64,000 nucleotides of DNA from NCBI GenBank assembly GCA_015296085.1, contig DVDT01000075.1, forward strand, positions 1 to 64,000. Reading direction: 5' to 3'. Numbering within the stretch: position 1 is the first letter of the stretch; the number at the start of each line of letters is the position of its first letter. A program made the position numbers and the translations under genes. This stretch comes from Trichormus sp. M33_DOE_039 (GTDB lineage: Bacteria > Cyanobacteriota > Cyanobacteriia > Cyanobacteriales > Nostocaceae). Below, piece after piece: positions 49,415 to 56,952 of this stretch. The notes under the pieces were generated by a model. It was not told where the DNA came from. It worked only from the letters and a program-made list of their open reading frames with translations, and made no database searches.

Positions 49415-50125
49415 ATGCTTACTCCATCAATTACTCCCATTCGTCTCCTGAAAGATTCTCTGAGATTGATGTTACTTGTTTACATCAATCTCCTATTTTT
49501 TTTAATTCCGTACATCATATTATCTTTATCTAAGTTTGCCGTTTCTGAAATCGCATTTTCTCTAATTTATATACTGTACTATTTCTCTTTAGGTATTCTA
49601 GTAATCGGAGCAAGAGTTTTTCTTGTATATAAAAAACTCAATTATGAAGACGTTACAGTATATGATTCTTTAAGAGTAACAATTAACAAGTTTCCAGAAA
49701 TTATTTTTTTAGAAGTTATCAATCTTTTAGGAATAATAACATTTCTATTACCTCGTTTATATTTTGTCCGCTACTTAGTAATAATTGAAGATTTGACGAC
49801 AGCAGAAGCGATTAAAAGATGTTGGTACATGACAAAAGGATATGGCTGGCAAATTTTCTGGAATCTCTTAACTTTTTCGTTTTCTATTAGAACTACATTA
49901 AACATCTTATCTAGTCTAATAACTGCTTTTGTATTTGGTGCTTCATTTTGGGATGTTAATCGAGATGCCTCATCAATCAATCAGCAAGTTTTTATTTCCT
50001 ATAATTTAATTAATATCTCAATTAATTTCTTTTTTAGTTATCCGTTGTCTACTGTCTATGATATGTTAATGTTTATCAGAATCTTGAATGCAGACAAAAG
50101 AAATTTAAAGGCATTAATTAGTTAG
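49415..50125 (+). CDS. polytopic membrane protein
   Basis: A 236-residue protein from ATG 49415; a TTG at 49289 would add 42 residues with no clear support. It has about five hydrophobic segments and the stretch LTTAEAIKRCWYMTKGYGWQIFWNLL. That motif, a short amphipathic EAIKRSW.L.KG segment before a membrane helix, is seen in the membrane domains of glycerophosphodiester phosphodiesterase-like and YciC-type proteins. Function unknown. AT-rich coding sequence. Its end overlaps by eight bases the end of the convergent pentapeptide-repeat gene. Confidence 0.65.
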   Translation: MLTPSITPIRLLKDSLRLMLLVYINLLFFLIPYIILSLSKFAVSEIAFSLIYILYYFSLGILVIGARVFLVYKKLNYEDVTVYDSLRVTINKFPEIIFLEVINLLGIITFLLPRLYFVRYLVIIEDLTTAEAIKRCWYMTKGYGWQIFWNLLTFSFSIRTTLNILSSLITAFVFGASFWDVNRDASSINQQVFISYNLINISINFFFSYPLSTVYDMLMFIRILNADKRNLKALIS

Positions 50126-52424
50126 AGATTGTCGATATTAAAATAAAATCGGCAAATTCACCAGGTTCAAAGATTCTTTGGTAGTTTTCAGGCTGACGGT
50201 GGGGGTTTGGATTATTTGATGTTGCTAAGTTGGTATAAATGTAATCACACTCCACTCCATCAAGTTTAGTGACAGTGTTAATCTTCCAGTCTTGAATACA
50301 AGCACCCGTTAAACAAGCACCAGTCAAATCTGTCTGTTCAAGATTAGCTTTGATCAGCTTTGCACCAGAAAGGTTCGCATTTTGTAAATTTGTTCCACTT
50401 AAGTTAGTACCAATAAAACTCGCCTCGGCCAAATCTGCACCTGATAAATTTAAACCGCTCAAACATAAGTGATCAAAATTCTGACCTTTACCTAAGCTTG
50501 TGATTACTAACTTTCTAATTTGTGGTGATTGCAAATTAGTTATACCAAGATAGGCAAATTCTAATTTTTTAGCTTGAAACCAAGAAGTGTGCTTCAGATT
50601 AGCATCACTGAAATCTGCACATTTAAGTGTGGTGTTGAAAAAATTAGCATTACGCAAATCAGCGCCTTGAAAACTTGTACTCTTCAAGCATAAACTTGTT
50701 GTAGCAACGGCAGTATTTAAAACAAACGCATATTTATCACTGCCATTTATAGCTTGCCAACCCACATAAAAACCTAGCCCAGCCATACTTGTCAGAATCA
50801 GTAAACTTCCAGCCGAGCTAAGTTCTGTTTCACTTAAAATTAAAAATATTAACCAAATTGGAATCCAAGATAACCCCACTGTTACAGCCAATGTTTTATT
50901 TACAAGCATAGCCACAGCCATTCCTACAGCTTCTAGCAAAATAAAACCAACAGTTGCAAATAAAGCAATACTAATAGCTAAAATAATATATTTATCTAGT
51001 TCAAACTGAGTAGATGTTAATACAGACTCAAGCCAGGCCTTAAATTTAGGGTCAGCTATATCAGATATTGATCTTGCAGAACCTTTATAACCACTCATTA
51101 ATAATAAACTCCAACCTCCAAATGTTATTCCTATCATTAGAGTCAAGCGAGTAGACCATTTACCCAAAAAACCTAAAACTCCTAACCTTGCGCCACTACC
51201 ACCAATAATCACAGCTATAATTCCTGCTATTGCTAAAATTGTCTTTTCGGGCCAACTCCAAATAGCAGGTAGTCCCATAGCACCTAAAGCTAAAATACCA
51301 GCGATACTTAAACTGCAAGCTCCTATAGTGGCTTCAATACCTCGTCGGAGAATTACAACGCAGATAATTGGAAACAATATCAGTACACTGATGGCAAAAA
51401 TATAAGTGGCTTCATTATTAGGATTTATTAGCAAGGTTTGTAAATAATATCCCGAAATAATTGCACCAATACCTGATGCTAGTGATAGGAATATTGAGCA
51501 AAATATTAAAACTAATAACCAGATATTTTGTAAATCGGCTTTGGAGTATGCAAAGTTAGCACCAACAAGAATAGCTTTGGTAAAATCTGCGCCTTGAATA
51601 TTGGAGTAGCTAAAATCTGCACCTGTCAAGTCTTGTCCTTTAAAAGACCGACCTTGTAAATTCTCATGAGAGAAGTTCGGTTTCCCTTGAGAACGTAATG
51701 CACTAATCCTTGATAAAACAGGTGTAGGGGTAGGCAAACTTACACCTGCTATGCGGATTTGGTTATTCACATCTACCAAATCATTTAAAAGTCTTGCTGC
51801 TAACTCCATATTGCCACGTACAAAAGCTGCAATACCGTGAGCATAGTTCAGCAAAGATTGAAACTCTTGTCGCGGTAATGCTAAAGCTTCTAGTAATGCC
51901 AACATCCGTAAGATTTCAGCAGGATGATCAAAATCTAGTTGAGAAAATGCTAGTGCTAGTTCATAAGTAGTTTTGTGGGGGCGAGTATAGCCTAAAGCAG
52001 CCCATCGCTGTGCTTTGGCAATATTTTGAATTTCCAGATCATCACTTTGTAGTTGTTGGCGAATATAGTCTAGTAAAAATTTCGATAACTCTTCAATTCG
52101 TCTTTTGCCAAAACAATCATCTTTTTGCAAACGATTGAGTAATTCCTGTCTGACTGTCGCATCCATTTGGTATATTTCATACCCTACTTCATTACACAGA
52201 CTAGAAAGCATTAAATCTGCTACAGCAATCCAAGGAATATTTAAGGCTTGTCCACGGATATTCTGTCGAAAGTTGATCCACAAGGCATAAAGTAAATCAG
52301 AGGTAAGTACCAACGGGAAAGCTGCATGATAAGCAAAAAAAAGATGCGCCTGACCGAAGCGTTTTTCAAACAATGCAATCCTTCGAGCCGCAATACCTGG
52401 TTTGAGATTAGAAATAACTGTCAT
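50118..52424 (-). CDS. VMAP-like N-terminal domain, pentapeptide-repeat membrane protein
   Basis: A 768-residue protein, last of the five-gene cluster. Residues 1-235 are a helical domain (RFGQAHLFFAYHAAFPLVL, PWIAVADLMLSSLCNEVGYEIY, VRQELLNRL) of the kind I know from cyanobacterial proteins encoded beside vWA and MoxR genes. A short pentapeptide-repeat block (about 245-297, LTGADFSYSNIQGADF) follows. Next come about eight to ten membrane helices (298-568), then a longer pentapeptide block (575-725, LSGADLAEASFIGTNLSGTNL). It is probably the adaptor or target-recognition part of a vWA-MoxR ternary system, fixed in the membrane. It begins 33 bases after the vWA gene. Confidence 0.8.
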   Translation of the reverse strand: MTVISNLKPGIAARRIALFEKRFGQAHLFFAYHAAFPLVLTSDLLYALWINFRQNIRGQALNIPWIAVADLMLSSLCNEVGYEIYQMDATVRQELLNRLQKDDCFGKRRIEELSKFLLDYIRQQLQSDDLEIQNIAKAQRWAALGYTRPHKTTYELALAFSQLDFDHPAEILRMLALLEALALPRQEFQSLLNYAHGIAAFVRGNMELAARLLNDLVDVNNQIRIAGVSLPTPTPVLSRISALRSQGKPNFSHENLQGRSFKGQDLTGADFSYSNIQGADFTKAILVGANFAYSKADLQNIWLLVLIFCSIFLSLASGIGAIISGYYLQTLLINPNNEATYIFAISVLILFPIICVVILRRGIEATIGACSLSIAGILALGAMGLPAIWSWPEKTILAIAGIIAVIIGGSGARLGVLGFLGKWSTRLTLMIGITFGGWSLLLMSGYKGSARSISDIADPKFKAWLESVLTSTQFELDKYIILAISIALFATVGFILLEAVGMAVAMLVNKTLAVTVGLSWIPIWLIFLILSETELSSAGSLLILTSMAGLGFYVGWQAINGSDKYAFVLNTAVATTSLCLKSTSFQGADLRNANFFNTTLKCADFSDANLKHTSWFQAKKLEFAYLGITNLQSPQIRKLVITSLGKGQNFDHLCLSGLNLSGADLAEASFIGTNLSGTNLQNANLSGAKLIKANLEQTDLTGACLTGACIQDWKINTVTKLDGVECDYIYTNLATSNNPNPHRQPENYQRIFEPGEFADFILISTISN

Positions 52425-52457: not shown

Positions 52458-54149
52458 CTACAGTCTAGAATTTCCAGATTGTCCACGTAGTACAGCAATT
52501 GCATTGTGTAAACCTTGACGACTTAATTCAAACATGGGGACTAGTTGAGCAATTTTACCTGCTGTAGTTCCTAACCAACGAGAACGAGGTATAGGGTTTA
52601 ACCAAGCAATATGACGAACTTGTTGTTTAAGTTGTTGTAAGAATTGGGCTGTTACTTCCTCTCGTTCTGGGTTAAAGCTGCCTCTCGCTGCTCCAGCATC
52701 ACTGAAGATTAAAACAGATGTGTGGGGTAAACGTAGGTGATTGAGAATATCTTCAATTGTTTCTGGCATTTGGTAGTAGCGATCGCGGTATAAATAATCA
52801 ATCGGGCAATTGTGAAAGTAATAAATATCAGTATTATCTAAACGTCCACCGCGCATAGCCGTTTCTGTTAATTGATATGATAAATTTTTAAACGGTATCA
52901 TCGAGCCATCATGATCAACAAGTAAAACTAACTTACTACGGTTAATCCGACATGGGACTAAAACAGGCTCTAGGAAAACTCCCTGTCTGCCAATGTTATT
53001 AATTGTTGCCTCTACATCAATTTCAGTGGGAACTCCTTCTTGCACCATACGGCGTAGGTAACGCCAACTCTGTTTCATTTGGCGACGACTGAGAGGAGGA
53101 TATTCGATTATTTGAATAAATCGGTTAAGATGTTTTATATTTTCCGTTTGAGATGTTTTGATCAGAGTTTCTGCTAATTTGATTTCATTATTAATAATTA
53201 CAGAATTTTCAGATTGTATTTGTTCTCTTTTGTTATTACTAACTGATTTACCCGCAAAGAAATTTTTTTCTCGTGTATTTTTATCTTTACTTCTGCCTAA
53301 AGTAACATATGTAATAGTTAGCAATATAGAAATAGCAATAGCATAATCCCTAATAATTGACCAGATTGAAACTTCTCTGACAGTATTGTTATTATTAATT
53401 AACTTAATATTAAAACTTTGTTCACTTTCCGCACCATGTTCATCTTTTACTTGCAACTTTACATTATAGAACTTTGGTTTTTCTGGCGATACGTTTCTAT
53501 TATTCAGTAGTTCTTCAAATGGATCATATTGACAGTTACCCTCTTCACTGCCTTCTGTACCTTCTAAAACTGCCGTCCCATTCTGATAATCTTTGAAGCT
53601 TAACCATGAGGGACAGGTTACAGCTTTAATAGTTAATTTATCTTTTCTGTTAACATCATAAGCTTTAATTTGATATCGATATAATTTACCTTTTTCTACT
53701 TGCTCAATCGGTTTACTAATAAAAATTGGTACTTTATTGGCTCGCCAAATATTAATAGTGACTCCAAAGACTAAAACAAAAACTCCCACTGGAATTGCAG
53801 AACTGATTAACAAAACTAAATAATCAGACCATCTGACAGTTTTATATGCTTCTACTACAATGTCATCTGGAGATACTTGTTCAGGAATAGCATTAACAGT
53901 GGTTAATCTAGAAGCTTGAGGTAATTCATTGGAGTTGAGAATAGATTTTTCAAAGTGATAATCAAATAATTTTTGATCTTGTGCTGATTTGATCCATAAA
54001 GTCCGGCATAATCTAGCTAAAGCCGCTTTATTTTCTAGACCAAAACCTGCCTGTAAAGCCTGTAAAACTGCTTGATAATCATCTATACCAAGCGGTAATC
54101 CTGCTTCTCGCAATCGAGTAAATAATTCTAAGAGGGGCAAATTATCCAT
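52458..54149 (-). CDS. vWA-domain membrane protein with extracytoplasmic cadherin-like segment
   Basis: A 563-residue protein. Residues 1-70 form a helical N-terminus (LPLLELFTRLREAGLPLG, CRTLWIKSAQDQKLFDYHF). A membrane helix lies at about 106-132. An Ig/cadherin-like beta domain at 140-255 (KPIEQVEKGKLYRYQIKAYD, VKDEHGAESEQSFNIKLI) follows, then a second membrane helix (260-286). The C-terminal vWA domain has MIDAS sequence LLVDHDGSM near 406-416, a DxDGS form rather than DxSxS, and ends in an IAWLNPIPRSRW segment. The vWA would be cytoplasmic beside the MoxR ATPase encoded 35 bases upstream, a classic vWA-MoxR pair. Confidence 0.85.
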   Translation of the reverse strand: MDNLPLLELFTRLREAGLPLGIDDYQAVLQALQAGFGLENKAALARLCRTLWIKSAQDQKLFDYHFEKSILNSNELPQASRLTTVNAIPEQVSPDDIVVEAYKTVRWSDYLVLLISSAIPVGVFVLVFGVTINIWRANKVPIFISKPIEQVEKGKLYRYQIKAYDVNRKDKLTIKAVTCPSWLSFKDYQNGTAVLEGTEGSEEGNCQYDPFEELLNNRNVSPEKPKFYNVKLQVKDEHGAESEQSFNIKLINNNNTVREVSIWSIIRDYAIAISILLTITYVTLGRSKDKNTREKNFFAGKSVSNNKREQIQSENSVIINNEIKLAETLIKTSQTENIKHLNRFIQIIEYPPLSRRQMKQSWRYLRRMVQEGVPTEIDVEATINNIGRQGVFLEPVLVPCRINRSKLVLLVDHDGSMIPFKNLSYQLTETAMRGGRLDNTDIYYFHNCPIDYLYRDRYYQMPETIEDILNHLRLPHTSVLIFSDAGAARGSFNPEREEVTAQFLQQLKQQVRHIAWLNPIPRSRWLGTTAGKIAQLVPMFELSRQGLHNAIAVLRGQSGNSRL

Positions 54150-54184: not shown

Positions 54185-55120
54185 TTATTGAATATAGCGT
54201 TTATGATCATCCCAGTTTTTAATTAATACACCCGCAAAAGGAATTTTTCCCTCTAACTTGGACAAAATTTCATCTTCAGGATATCGTCTTAACACTCGTA
54301 ACCAATCAATTAATTCACTGGTGCTAACTTTTTTACCAGCTTCTCCTTTATCTTGCAGCATTTTTTCACGTAGTTCTACAAAGCGAGTGAGTGCTGTTCT
54401 GACTAAAGCTTCTGACTCCGTAGGGAAGTGAGCATTGATAATCGCAAATAATTGTTCTACGTTAGGAAATTCAACATAATGAAATAGACAACGCCGCAAA
54501 AAGGCATCGGGGAGGTCTTTTTCATCGTTGCTAGTAATAACAACTATTGGCGGAAAATTGGCTTGAATCACCTCTTGAGTTTCACTGACAATAAAAAAAA
54601 GCTGATCCAATTCCAACAATAAATCATTGGGAAAATCAATATCTGCTTTATCAATTTCATCAATTAAGACTACTGTTGGCTGCTCTGCAATGAAAGCCTC
54701 TCCAAGAGCATTCCAGGTGATATAGGTTGCAGGATTATCAATGCGCTGATATTGTTCTGGGGTCAGACGATTGGAAGCAGCAAGTTGAGCATCTCGTAAT
54801 CTACCAACAGCATCGTAGGTGTATAAACCATCTCTGGCTCGACTTGTTGATTTGATATACCAAGCTTTAAAATCTAGTCCCAATTCATAAGCAACTGCTC
54901 TAGCTAATTGGGTTTTACCACATCCGGGTTCTCCTTTAAGCAACAAAGGACGTTGTAGATATATTGCCAGGTTAACCGCTTCCACTAATTCAGGATTTGG
55001 TAAGTAGGGATAAAGCAATTGTCCTGTTTTGGGGTCGCATTCTCCAGGATGAGGTTGAACTAAGCCTGTGTATTCAGCTACAGAGTTTCTCAACAAATTT
55101 TTAACCATTCTTCCAACCAT
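54185..55120 (-). CDS. MoxR-type AAA+ ATPase
   Basis: A 311-residue AAA+ ATPase of the MoxR branch. Walker A GEPGCGKT is near 62-69, Walker B VVLIDEIDKADIDFPNDLL near 150-168 and sensor 1 VVITSNDEKDLPDAFLRRC contains the Arg finger. MoxR ATPases remodel complexes with vWA partners, and the vWA gene follows directly. The first codons overlap the preceding gene by 31 bases if ATG 55120 is used; ATG 55108 gives a smaller overlap. Tight packing indicates one transcript. Confidence 0.93.
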   Translation of the reverse strand: MVGRMVKNLLRNSVAEYTGLVQPHPGECDPKTGQLLYPYLPNPELVEAVNLAIYLQRPLLLKGEPGCGKTQLARAVAYELGLDFKAWYIKSTSRARDGLYTYDAVGRLRDAQLAASNRLTPEQYQRIDNPATYITWNALGEAFIAEQPTVVLIDEIDKADIDFPNDLLLELDQLFFIVSETQEVIQANFPPIVVITSNDEKDLPDAFLRRCLFHYVEFPNVEQLFAIINAHFPTESEALVRTALTRFVELREKMLQDKGEAGKKVSTSELIDWLRVLRRYPEDEILSKLEGKIPFAGVLIKNWDDHKRYIQ

Positions 55121-56055
55121 TCACACTCACATAGATTACATATTTCCCAAAACGCTGGTATGGGTAAACCAGCATCGCTGTTTTCTAAGATTGTTTGCAC
55201 AGATAAATCGACATTTTCTACTAATTGGTCTGGTAAATATTGAAATTCGTTAACAATCCAATTGCGTAATACTTGATCAGAAAAAATTTTATTTACAGGT
55301 AGTTTTATGGGTACATGAGAACTCCAGCCTGACTCAAAAATTTCTGAAAAGGAAATGTTCCATTTTTGGCTTTCTACTGAACTTTTGTGATCTATTAAAA
55401 ACATCAATAATTTAAAGTTGGTTTGGGATGCGATATTTTGAGCTTGAGTTACTAAAGGCATCCAAAAACTTTGGATTAGCTCTTGCAAGAGTTGTTCAGA
55501 CATAAATTCTACATTGTCCACAACAATGTAAATATTTTTAGTTGTCCAAGATTTAAATACTTTTTCCGCAATTACAGACGGAGAATCTTTAATTCCGCCA
55601 AAGTGACGGCCTAATGCTCGCCACATTGTTTGAGGATGGGGATTATAAACTAGGCAGTCAAGATCCACTAGGACTGGTTTATCTGAAACTCTGCGGATTT
55701 CTTTGAGCAATCTATTTGCTAACCAATGTTGTCCATATTCCTGAGAAAAACCATGTATTAGGAAAGCTGCTATTTGACTCCTTCTAATAAATCTAGAAAA
55801 TAGCTGGGTTTGGTCTGTATAGTCTAATCTTAGTAGTAAGTGATAGAGTTGTTGATTTTTTATTTGATAAATTTGCCACTCAAGTTCACTACGTTTTGCC
55901 TGAGCTTGTTGGAGTTGCTGTTCATATTGAAGACATCTAGTTACATCTGTTTCAATAGCTAAACTATTACCTAATCTGTTGATTTTTTCAGTAAAAAGGT
56001 GATATTGCTGCTGGATTTCTTCAAGGTCATTCTCAAAGTCAGAATTATAAAACAT
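55090..56055 (-). CDS. inactive STAND-like protein with N-terminal effector-association module
   Basis: A 321-residue protein. Residues 8-65 form a coiled, helical module (QQQYHLFTEKINRLGN, LAIETDVTRCLQYEQQLQQAQ) that matches the C-terminus of the CHAT protein encoded just upstream. The rest has the layout of a STAND NTPase but with a degenerate P loop (HGFSQEYGQHWLANRLL, no GKT/S) and a Walker-B-like IYIVVDNVEF. That is how inactive STAND domains of conflict systems look. It would bind a partner or a signal rather than hydrolyse ATP. It starts 39 bases after the CHAT gene. Confidence 0.75.
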   Translation of the reverse strand: MFYNSDFENDLEEIQQQYHLFTEKINRLGNSLAIETDVTRCLQYEQQLQQAQAKRSELEWQIYQIKNQQLYHLLLRLDYTDQTQLFSRFIRRSQIAAFLIHGFSQEYGQHWLANRLLKEIRRVSDKPVLVDLDCLVYNPHPQTMWRALGRHFGGIKDSPSVIAEKVFKSWTTKNIYIVVDNVEFMSEQLLQELIQSFWMPLVTQAQNIASQTNFKLLMFLIDHKSSVESQKWNISFSEIFESGWSSHVPIKLPVNKIFSDQVLRNWIVNEFQYLPDQLVENVDLSVQTILENSDAGLPIPAFWEICNLCECEWLEEWLKIC

Positions 56056-56094: not shown

Positions 56095-56952
56095 TTATGG
56101 GAGTTGATGACTGATAGTTTCAAGCTGTTCTGTGATGCGTTGACATTCTAATTGGGCGTGTTCAATCTGTTTTTCTAACTTAAAGCAAACTGCCTCATCT
56201 GTTTCAATAGCTCTAGCATTTCTCAAGCGTCGTAGCTTTTCATGCCACAAATCGTATTGCTGCTGCAAGCCTTGATGCTCCTGTTCTAGATGACGATATT
56301 GCCAGTTGTTTAATTTTTTAGCAGGAGGATTAATATTTTGATGAGCAGCAGATAATTTTGGGTTTTTCTGTAAGACAGGGGTTAAATGTTCTTGAATACC
56401 AGCCATACGGATAGAATTACACGCCCATTTGTAGGCAAATTCTATGTCACGCCCTGCTCCTAAAGCGTTATAAAAACCAAAAGCAAATTCGAGCGCTGCC
56501 TGATCTCCGATCGCCTGTTTCATGCCAATTACATAGGAAATATGTTGAGCGATCGCTTTTACCTGTATCTCTGAGTAACAAGCATTCAAAATTACACATT
56601 CTATTTGATCAGCTACAAGTTCTAATAAACCTGCTAATGATTCACCATCAACAAATGTCGCTGCGCCAACTTCATTCTCAAAAATTAAACCTTCTTCTTG
56701 CCCACCATGCCCAGAAAAGTGGATAATCTGAGGATTGACATCTAAAATCGCAGTTTGAATATCTCTAGGACGAACTGCCCACCTTGACACTAAACTAAAA
56801 TGCTGTCGGTATTGCGATCGCTGTAAAGTTTCACCTATATCACGCACTTCCTGATCCAGTCGCAAGGAAGTCGTGTTTCTAGGATTGGCTGCTAGAATCA
56901 AAATCTTTCTGGTAGGAACACCATCAAGACTTTGAAGACGTACATCAGTCAT
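56095..56952 (-). CDS. CHAT-domain caspase-like protease with C-terminal association module
   Basis: A 285-residue protein, first in the cluster. Residues 15-195 are a CHAT (caspase HetF associated with TPRs) peptidase: KILILAANPRNTTSLRLDQEVRDI, shown to mark residues 16-39 (key stretch AANPRNTTSLRLD), then catalytic His82 in IHFSGHGG and Cys125 in VILNACYSE. Both catalytic residues are intact. Residues 220-282 form a helical module (QQQYDLWHEKLRRLRNARAI, CFKLEKQIEHAQ) shared with the next protein. CHAT proteases act as effectors that cleave host proteins or activate other effectors once released from control. Likely the executioner of the cluster. Confidence 0.88.
   Translation of the reverse strand: MTDVRLQSLDGVPTRKILILAANPRNTTSLRLDQEVRDIGETLQRSQYRQHFSLVSRWAVRPRDIQTAILDVNPQIIHFSGHGGQEEGLIFENEVGAATFVDGESLAGLLELVADQIECVILNACYSEIQVKAIAQHISYVIGMKQAIGDQAALEFAFGFYNALGAGRDIEFAYKWACNSIRMAGIQEHLTPVLQKNPKLSAAHQNINPPAKKLNNWQYRHLEQEHQGLQQQYDLWHEKLRRLRNARAIETDEAVCFKLEKQIEHAQLECQRITEQLETISHQLP

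Follow-up and report, generated by a model that had tools for sequence, protein, structure and literature searches.

In the window, by which we mean the whole 64,000-nucleotide stretch of DNA analysed here, five genes on one strand are transcribed in the order CHAT protein, iSTAND protein, MoxR, vWA protein, and pentapeptide/membrane protein. These genes, and the features within them, are as follows.

56095..56952, minus strand: CHAT (caspase-like) protein with SGHG and NAC motifs (PF12770, 35.7 bits)
56104..56289, minus strand: second copy of the coupling coil, CHAT C-terminus, residues 222-283 (match to the iSTAND coil)
55090..56055, minus strand: iSTAND protein (PF19995, 92.9 bits, cut-off 24)
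55852..56037, minus strand: coupling coil, iSTAND N-terminus, residues 7-68 (39% identity to the CHAT coil, E 9e-10)
54185..55120, minus strand: MoxR-type AAA+ ATPase, Walker A (GEPGCGKT) and Walker B (VVLIDE) both intact
52458..54149, minus strand: vWA co-chaperone protein of 563 aa with a two-helix membrane hairpin (PF05762 and AlphaFold2 model)
53925..54149, minus strand: N-terminal four-helix domain, residues 1-75 (model helices 6-15, 22-33, 41-52, and 56-75)
53739..53831, minus strand: transmembrane (TM) helix 1, residues 107-137 (hydropathy and AlphaFold2 model)
53382..53738, minus strand: cadherin-like/He_PIG ectodomain, residues 138-256 (model, profile, and structural matches)
53289..53366, minus strand: TM helix 2, residues 262-287 (hydropathy and AlphaFold2 model)
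52479..53105, minus strand: vWA domain, residues 349-557 (Pfam and structure comparison)
52902..52916, minus strand: MIDAS motif DHDGS, residues 412-416 (sequence)
50118..52424, minus strand: fifth gene, encoding a conserved helical N-domain and six predicted TM segments with pentapeptide repeats on either side
51714..52406, minus strand: conserved N-domain of the fifth protein, residues 7-237 (fused behind vWA in six relatives that lack TM segments)

Judged by its domain content, this operon is an iSTAND-type MoxR-vWA ternary conflict system, that is, a system of a known kind. PF19995, AAA, VWA_CoxE, and CHAT each score above their Pfam cut-offs, and PF19995 has a single match in the whole genome. 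The MoxR protein reaches 40.1 bits with the AAA model, and its gene adjoins the vWA gene on the same strand. No GK[ST] P-loop motif occurs in the iSTAND protein, so its STAND domain is read as inactive; it is the iSTAND model that matches this third component, with no VMAP-named model among the Pfam matches. The SGHG and NAC motifs of the CHAT protein presumably hold the catalytic His and Cys. The arrangement recurs: of 56 loci that span 6 kb or more, 43 have iSTAND (counted at over 100 bits) and MoxR before the vWA gene and the fifth gene, or its fused N-domain, behind it. Two Hormoscilla loci (L073 and L076) look decayed: their vWA gene is split into separate short frames, and L076 moreover has a MoxR frame of just 131 aa.

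The open reading frame at 52458-54149 is a genuine gene, since its neighbors run on the same strand, its product exceeds the VWA_CoxE (PF05762) cut-off (38.8 against 26.4 bits), and it has matches in other genomes. The original prediction described its product as a vWA protein in which a two-helix anchor encloses a beta domain, and this anchor is borne out by Kyte-Doolittle peaks at 112-130 (2.58) and 262-280 (1.55) together with model helices at 107-137 and 262-287. The AlphaFold2 model, built from an alignment of 39 rows, has a mean pLDDT of 78.7 and a pTM of 0.45, a value so low that the domains are not positioned relative to one another. Confidence in the two membrane helices is middling (pLDDT, averaged by tens of residues, of 45-79 for the first and 64-87 for the second), and it falls below 50 at 75-107, 288-317, and 333-343. 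At the C-terminus the model has the alpha/beta vWA fold. The four helices within residues 6-75 form a four-helix N-terminus, putatively akin to CoxE, of the kind that vWA proteins of iSTAND systems have. The MIDAS had been noted as DxDGS in place of DxSxS; the motif is present, as DHDGS, but it is not odd for this family, in which DxDGS is the commonest form (49 of 110 proteins by pattern search, with 10 missed by the pattern).

The domain between the helices is, according to the model, an Ig/cadherin-type sandwich, and the cadherin/Ig reading of the original prediction was thus correct as to fold. Seven strands lie between residues 150 and 251, and pLDDT by tens is 89-96 over 141-200 and 231-250, dropping to 68-85 over 201-230. 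In a VIA-align comparison of model residues ~138-254, Z was 11.0 for SraP, 10.3 for CELSR1, and 8.8-9.7 for protocadherins; the best structural match for residues 138-253 was the SraP binding region (PDB 4m00; Z 11.0, rmsd 2.0 over 88 residues). The best 50 Foldseek rows (E 3e-4 to 5e-3), with those of poor rmsd disregarded, were mostly Rib, SraP/SrpA, PKD, cadherin, and Ig domains. At the sequence level, the He_PIG (putative Ig domain) model gives 20.4 bits against a cut-off of 24 in the whole protein and 26.6 bits with the domain alone, and 5 of the 6 aligned domains match it at E up to 1. A profile built from six rows matched a solved fucoidanase at 2e-12 over the whole chain, a value summed over three repeats of which the best single one gives 0.008, and it also matched solved collagenase chains; both are enzymes which we take to be secreted. 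Beyond the vWA family, residues 128-205 match very long frames of up to 7866 aa in related genomes, which probably encode surface proteins. The window protein has a single cadherin-like domain and no tandem repeat of it. Between this protein and its relative L042 the ectodomain is 50% identical and the flanking domains 79-80% (80% for the N-terminal domain), but this divergence is no sign of recognition selection or an arms race, since the linkers and TM helices have diverged faster (23-44% identity).

Membrane topology was assessed in 110 distinct proteins that retain most of their vWA domain, the window's included. They come from loci that make up part of all matches, in searches of 149 genomes and of 388 genomes of the class and among 46 named loci. 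The N-terminal domain is present in 104 of these proteins, and 39 of the 104 have exactly two TM segments between it and the vWA, a frequency that does not bear out the earlier view of the hairpin as an exception among MoxR-partner vWA proteins. In the 15-residue flanks of the 39 hairpins, Lys and Arg together number 146 before TM1 and 67 after it, and 32 before TM2 and 140 after it. Taken protein by protein, the positive-inside rule places the loop outside in 37 of the 39, with 1 reversed and 1 tie. Hydropathy and charge counts therefore support the four-helix domain and the vWA lying on one side of the membrane and the cadherin-like domain on the other, as the original prediction had it. The side of the N-terminal domain and vWA should be the cytoplasm, because the number of helices is even and the MoxR partner has no export signal discernible by eye.

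It is very improbable that the beta domain is instead cytoplasmic, with helices that are amphipathic or re-entrant. Such a placement would fit the window protein taken alone, where the charge difference is small (2 and 5 in the outer flanks against 2 and 2 in the loop flanks, or 7 against 4), the TM2 peak is only 1.55, and the helix confidence is middling, but it is at odds with the 37 of 39 proteins that favor an outside loop and with an even helix count that puts both ends on the same side as the MoxR partner. Cysteine depletion was considered as a further sign of export and dropped as non-discriminating, since middle regions that lack TM segments are Cys-poor as well (5 of 6463 residues, against 12 of 5054 in the loops and 121 of 15028 in the cytoplasmic parts).

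Comparison with relatives supports the hairpin loop being an exchangeable cassette. In many of them the N-domain and vWA are ~40-70% identical to those of the window protein, and the middle differs. The survey found four kinds of loop in the 39 hairpins: 27 are short, 6 are of a single He_PIG type, 3 are Calx-beta-like, and 3 are He_PIG domains with nested WD40 repeats, so that a cadherin-like loop occurs in 9 of the 39. The short loops span 22-80 residues, and by eye most of them are rich in Pro, Ser, Thr, or Gln. Because they make up 27 of the 39, a hairpin is evidently possible without a folded ectodomain, and a folded sensor is not essential. The single He_PIG-type loops are those of the window protein, L039, L042, L040, L041, and L095, the last three of which were assigned by alignment, with He_PIG unmatched in their whole-protein scans. 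Among the Calx-beta-like loops, L116 scores 28.8 bits (cut-off 27), L098 25.9 bits and hence below the cut-off, and L115 was assigned by resemblance only.

The nested WD40 repeats exceed the Pfam cut-off in L056, L060, and L058, whose loops reach 462, 493, and 1403 residues; the corresponding vWA genes lie at L056:6189-9017, L060:5889-8657, and L058:3216-8738. In L056 the WD40 stretch is flanked by matches to window residues 4-197 and 216-557, and in L058, L060, and L052 the first-half matches end near window residue 198-208, which puts the insertion point in the loop between model strands 192-198 and 227-235. The second half of the cadherin-like domain, taken alone, is matched only weakly (E 0.25 in L060). 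In L052 (8049-9958) and L019 a nested-WD40 copy is split, leaving two frames (387 and 241 aa). Twenty extra regions chosen by reading-frame size, partly duplicates and excluded from all counts, added, judged by eye, three Calx-beta-like loops (L190-L192) and a further kind of loop, a 284-residue stretch of short repeats that look helical (L189:4798-6876). The vWA domain of the L072 protein (L072:7995-9917) is nearly identical to that of L025, and the L072 middle is ~200 residues longer, matches DUF4114, and has no predicted TM segment.

The fifth gene is the other variable element of these loci. Its N-domain, which has no Pfam match, recurs across loci and connects the vWA to very diverse partners. 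Three of the relatives in which this domain is fused behind the vWA were scanned, and two of them (L117 and L121) continue into an FGE-sulfatase domain that the third (L122) lacks. Scans of 10 fifth genes returned CHASE2, FGE-sulfatase, SLH, AAA_35, T4SS-type, CHAT, and pentapeptide domains, with one gene giving no match. The window's fifth protein has one long inter-helix stretch (415-478), and its structure prediction has a mean pLDDT of 56, with the membrane part at ~40. In 388 genomes this membrane part has, besides the window, weak matches only (E 1e-7 or worse), mostly at the pentapeptide border. A second frame in the window's own genome (724 aa; G000:C54:91295-91627) has weak similarity to the TM/pentapeptide border.

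The nature of the fifth protein goes together with that of the ectodomain. All 9 rows with a He_PIG-type vWA protein, nested forms included, have a fifth protein with at least 4 TM segments (6-13 observed), against 1 of 60 other rows, the exception being L057 with 5. Fisher's exact test gives p 1.8e-10, and p 5e-7 when only hairpins are compared (9 of 9 against 1 of 22), though these values ignore kinship. The TM counts are hydropathy counts made with cut-offs of our own choosing, and the window's value of six was entered by hand. Because TM segments could be missed in fifth genes cut by a locus end, as in 36 rows, this count takes complete fifth genes and leaves out 39 rows without one and the broken copy L019; a first count, with 21 of the 109 tree rows left out, was 9 of 9 against 1 of 79. 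In a quick tree of the 109 rows, the well-supported branches provide a single independent comparison and all branches together three, so common descent may explain the pairing. The three Calx-beta-like vWA proteins of the survey pair with fifth proteins that have no TM segments, the two scanned being FGE-sulfatase proteins.

At the other end of the operon, the iSTAND and CHAT proteins share a coil. Its presence on a core component and an effector of one operon resembles the effector-associated domains (EAD) of Kaur et al., and neither protein has an EAD-named Pfam match at E up to 1. When coils were compared across 17 pairs, the own partner ranked first in 6, and the window's pair ranked fifth. 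Two further weak copies of the coil occur in the genome (28-31% identity, E 9e-5 and 7e-4). They lie at G000:C60:148853-149032 (L156) and G000:C39:98751-98924 (L157), and with domains assigned by eye, the first follows a TIR-like domain, while the second precedes a STAND-like ATPase in a protein that also has an HTH.

An exchangeable outside part suggests an outward-looking sensor, and sensing of an envelope event by the ectodomain is plausible. It is quite possible that the window protein is the membrane-spanning vWA subunit of an iSTAND system whose ectodomain recognizes an outside event that is passed to the chaperone and effectors. The ectodomain would recognize something periplasmic or at the surface, such as an envelope change, an adsorbed phage, a neighboring cell of the filament, or a wall polymer, and this recognition would move the hairpin and hence the vWA. 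The MoxR ring would then spend ATP on remodeling the complex of vWA and iSTAND. Through its coil the iSTAND protein could hand its state to the CHAT protease, which bears a copy of that coil, and the vWA could act on the product of the fifth gene, a pentapeptide/membrane protein that would serve as membrane effector. Such a route, from recognition through hairpin transmission and MoxR remodeling to a protease and a membrane effector as outputs, is what we infer for the operon as a whole. The sensing reading is weakened by the expectation of Kaur et al., in the portion of their paper covered here, that the third component (VMAP or iSTAND) coordinates sensing, a task thereby not assigned to the vWA protein (PMC7159879). 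We propose more tentatively a general form of this reading, in which the vWA co-chaperone is a modular transmembrane receptor whose hairpin accepts cadherin-like, Calx-beta-like, or propeller-bearing ectodomains and relays an outside signal through the chaperone to the protease and a matched membrane effector.

Two readings of the same observations, neither of which needs a foreign ligand, are serious rivals. The ectodomain might recognize the polytopic pentapeptide protein of its own operon and so join chaperone and effector, with nothing foreign bound. The strict pairing of He_PIG-type vWA proteins with fifth proteins of 6-13 TM segments speaks for such docking, as does the pairing of the Calx-beta-like proteins with partners that lack TM segments. 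We nevertheless regard it as rather doubtful, given the few independent origins of the pairing and the WD40-bearing loops of 462-1403 residues, which exceed the needs of a dock. Alternatively, the hairpin could simply fix the complex at the membrane, with its domain serving as a spacer or as a permanent binder of peptidoglycan or sheath polysaccharide and with the iSTAND protein as the sensor. This we consider unlikely, for swapping large unrelated folds at one site is more than a tether needs. In its favor are the many short loops, the SLH domain in one fifth protein, and, in the covered part of Kaur et al., the inference that a subset of iSTAND systems acts near the membrane and wall, with the third component sensing (PMC7159879).

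A role as sensor might also fall to the fifth protein, with the vWA hairpin as its membrane partner. The fifth gene is highly variable in its domains, and the part of a study of Nostoc punctiforme covered here describes CHAT, MoxR, and VWA genes in the neighborhood of a diversity-generating retroelement (DGR) as co-expressed with the DGR target gene (PMC12691664). The idea is improbable, however, in view of the six relatives that carry the fifth protein's N-domain as a fusion behind the vWA, which is the effector position in the covered text of Kaur et al. (PMC7159879), and of the window's own genome, in which RVT_1 has no match.

If the preferred reading of the vWA protein as a transmembrane receptor is true, the exchangeable ectodomain gives ternary conflict systems a testable sensor and indicates where to seek the trigger. 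MoxR-vWA pairs have mostly been studied as cytoplasmic chaperone machines, and here a bacterial receptor would be built so that a chaperone, not a kinase, conveys the signal inward. The receptor would also adjoin a caspase-like protease, recalling the cell-death pathways of animals.

The distribution of the family is patchy, as would be expected for accessory systems. The vWA protein has matches in 60 of 149 genomes, its own included; in some of these the match is confined to the beta domain and lies in a very long frame. In the plasmid collection 27 records match, all below 60% identity and none covering 80% of the protein, and among the 12 plasmid matches listed, four from Aeromonas and Acinetobacter concern the vWA part only. 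PADLOC models did not match the vWA, iSTAND, or fifth protein. Its 'chat' model is matched by the CHAT protein (59.5 bits), and MoxR matches AAA models weakly, the best being IetA (28.5 bits). MADS is a phage-defense system, and the operon was not classed as MADS, since the MadB model gives 85.8 bits where the cut-off is 475 and MadC gives 10.5 where it is 600. GAP1-N2 GTPase conflict systems are also unlike the operon, having a GTPase-based core without a MoxR-vWA pair. SraP, the best structural match of the ectodomain, is a staphylococcal surface adhesin without a vWA-MoxR context, unlike the window protein.

The closest relationship is to the iSTAND ternary systems (subsystem 2) of Kaur et al. 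(2020; PMC7159879), of which the comparison here covers part of the text. Their conflict role was proposed from genomics, and ~28% have N-terminal TM segments. Shared with the operon are MoxR, a vWA protein with a four-helix N-terminus, an inactive STAND protein, a variable effector part, and the N-terminal TM segments. The variable region of those systems is C-terminal in the vWA protein, whereas the window protein ends with its vWA and the variable part is encoded by a gene of its own. The covered text describes neither an ectodomain between TM helices, nor its exchange, nor nested WD40 repeats. The beta-propeller ternary systems of the same paper have a vWA-propeller fusion, like L056, L058, and L060, but with the propeller C-terminal to the vWA, whereas in these three proteins it lies N-terminal to the vWA, between the TM helices and nested in the cadherin-like domain. 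The window operon was rejected as a beta-propeller system, as the vWA match ends at residue 557 of 563 and bpMoxR scores below its cut-off on the MoxR protein (16.8 against 27 bits).

Searches of the open-licence literature found nothing on He_PIG with MoxR or on Calx-beta with vWA and MoxR, and for iSTAND with transmembrane and cadherin terms only PMC7159879 was relevant, judged by titles. Neither an ectodomain cassette nor nested WD40 repeats turned up in the open-licence literature searched, and both are thus apparently new. The window's genome has no RVT_1 match (3 of 14 control genomes do), so there is no sign of a DGR here. In DGR-diversified ternary systems, as the covered part of PMC10907252 presents them, variation is introduced by a retroelement, whereas the relatives of the window protein exchange whole ectodomains. 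The same part of that source proposes, for one locus (DGR 7), that a protein with a vWA and a variable C-lectin domain is an antigen sensor, and this is the nearest published idea that we found.
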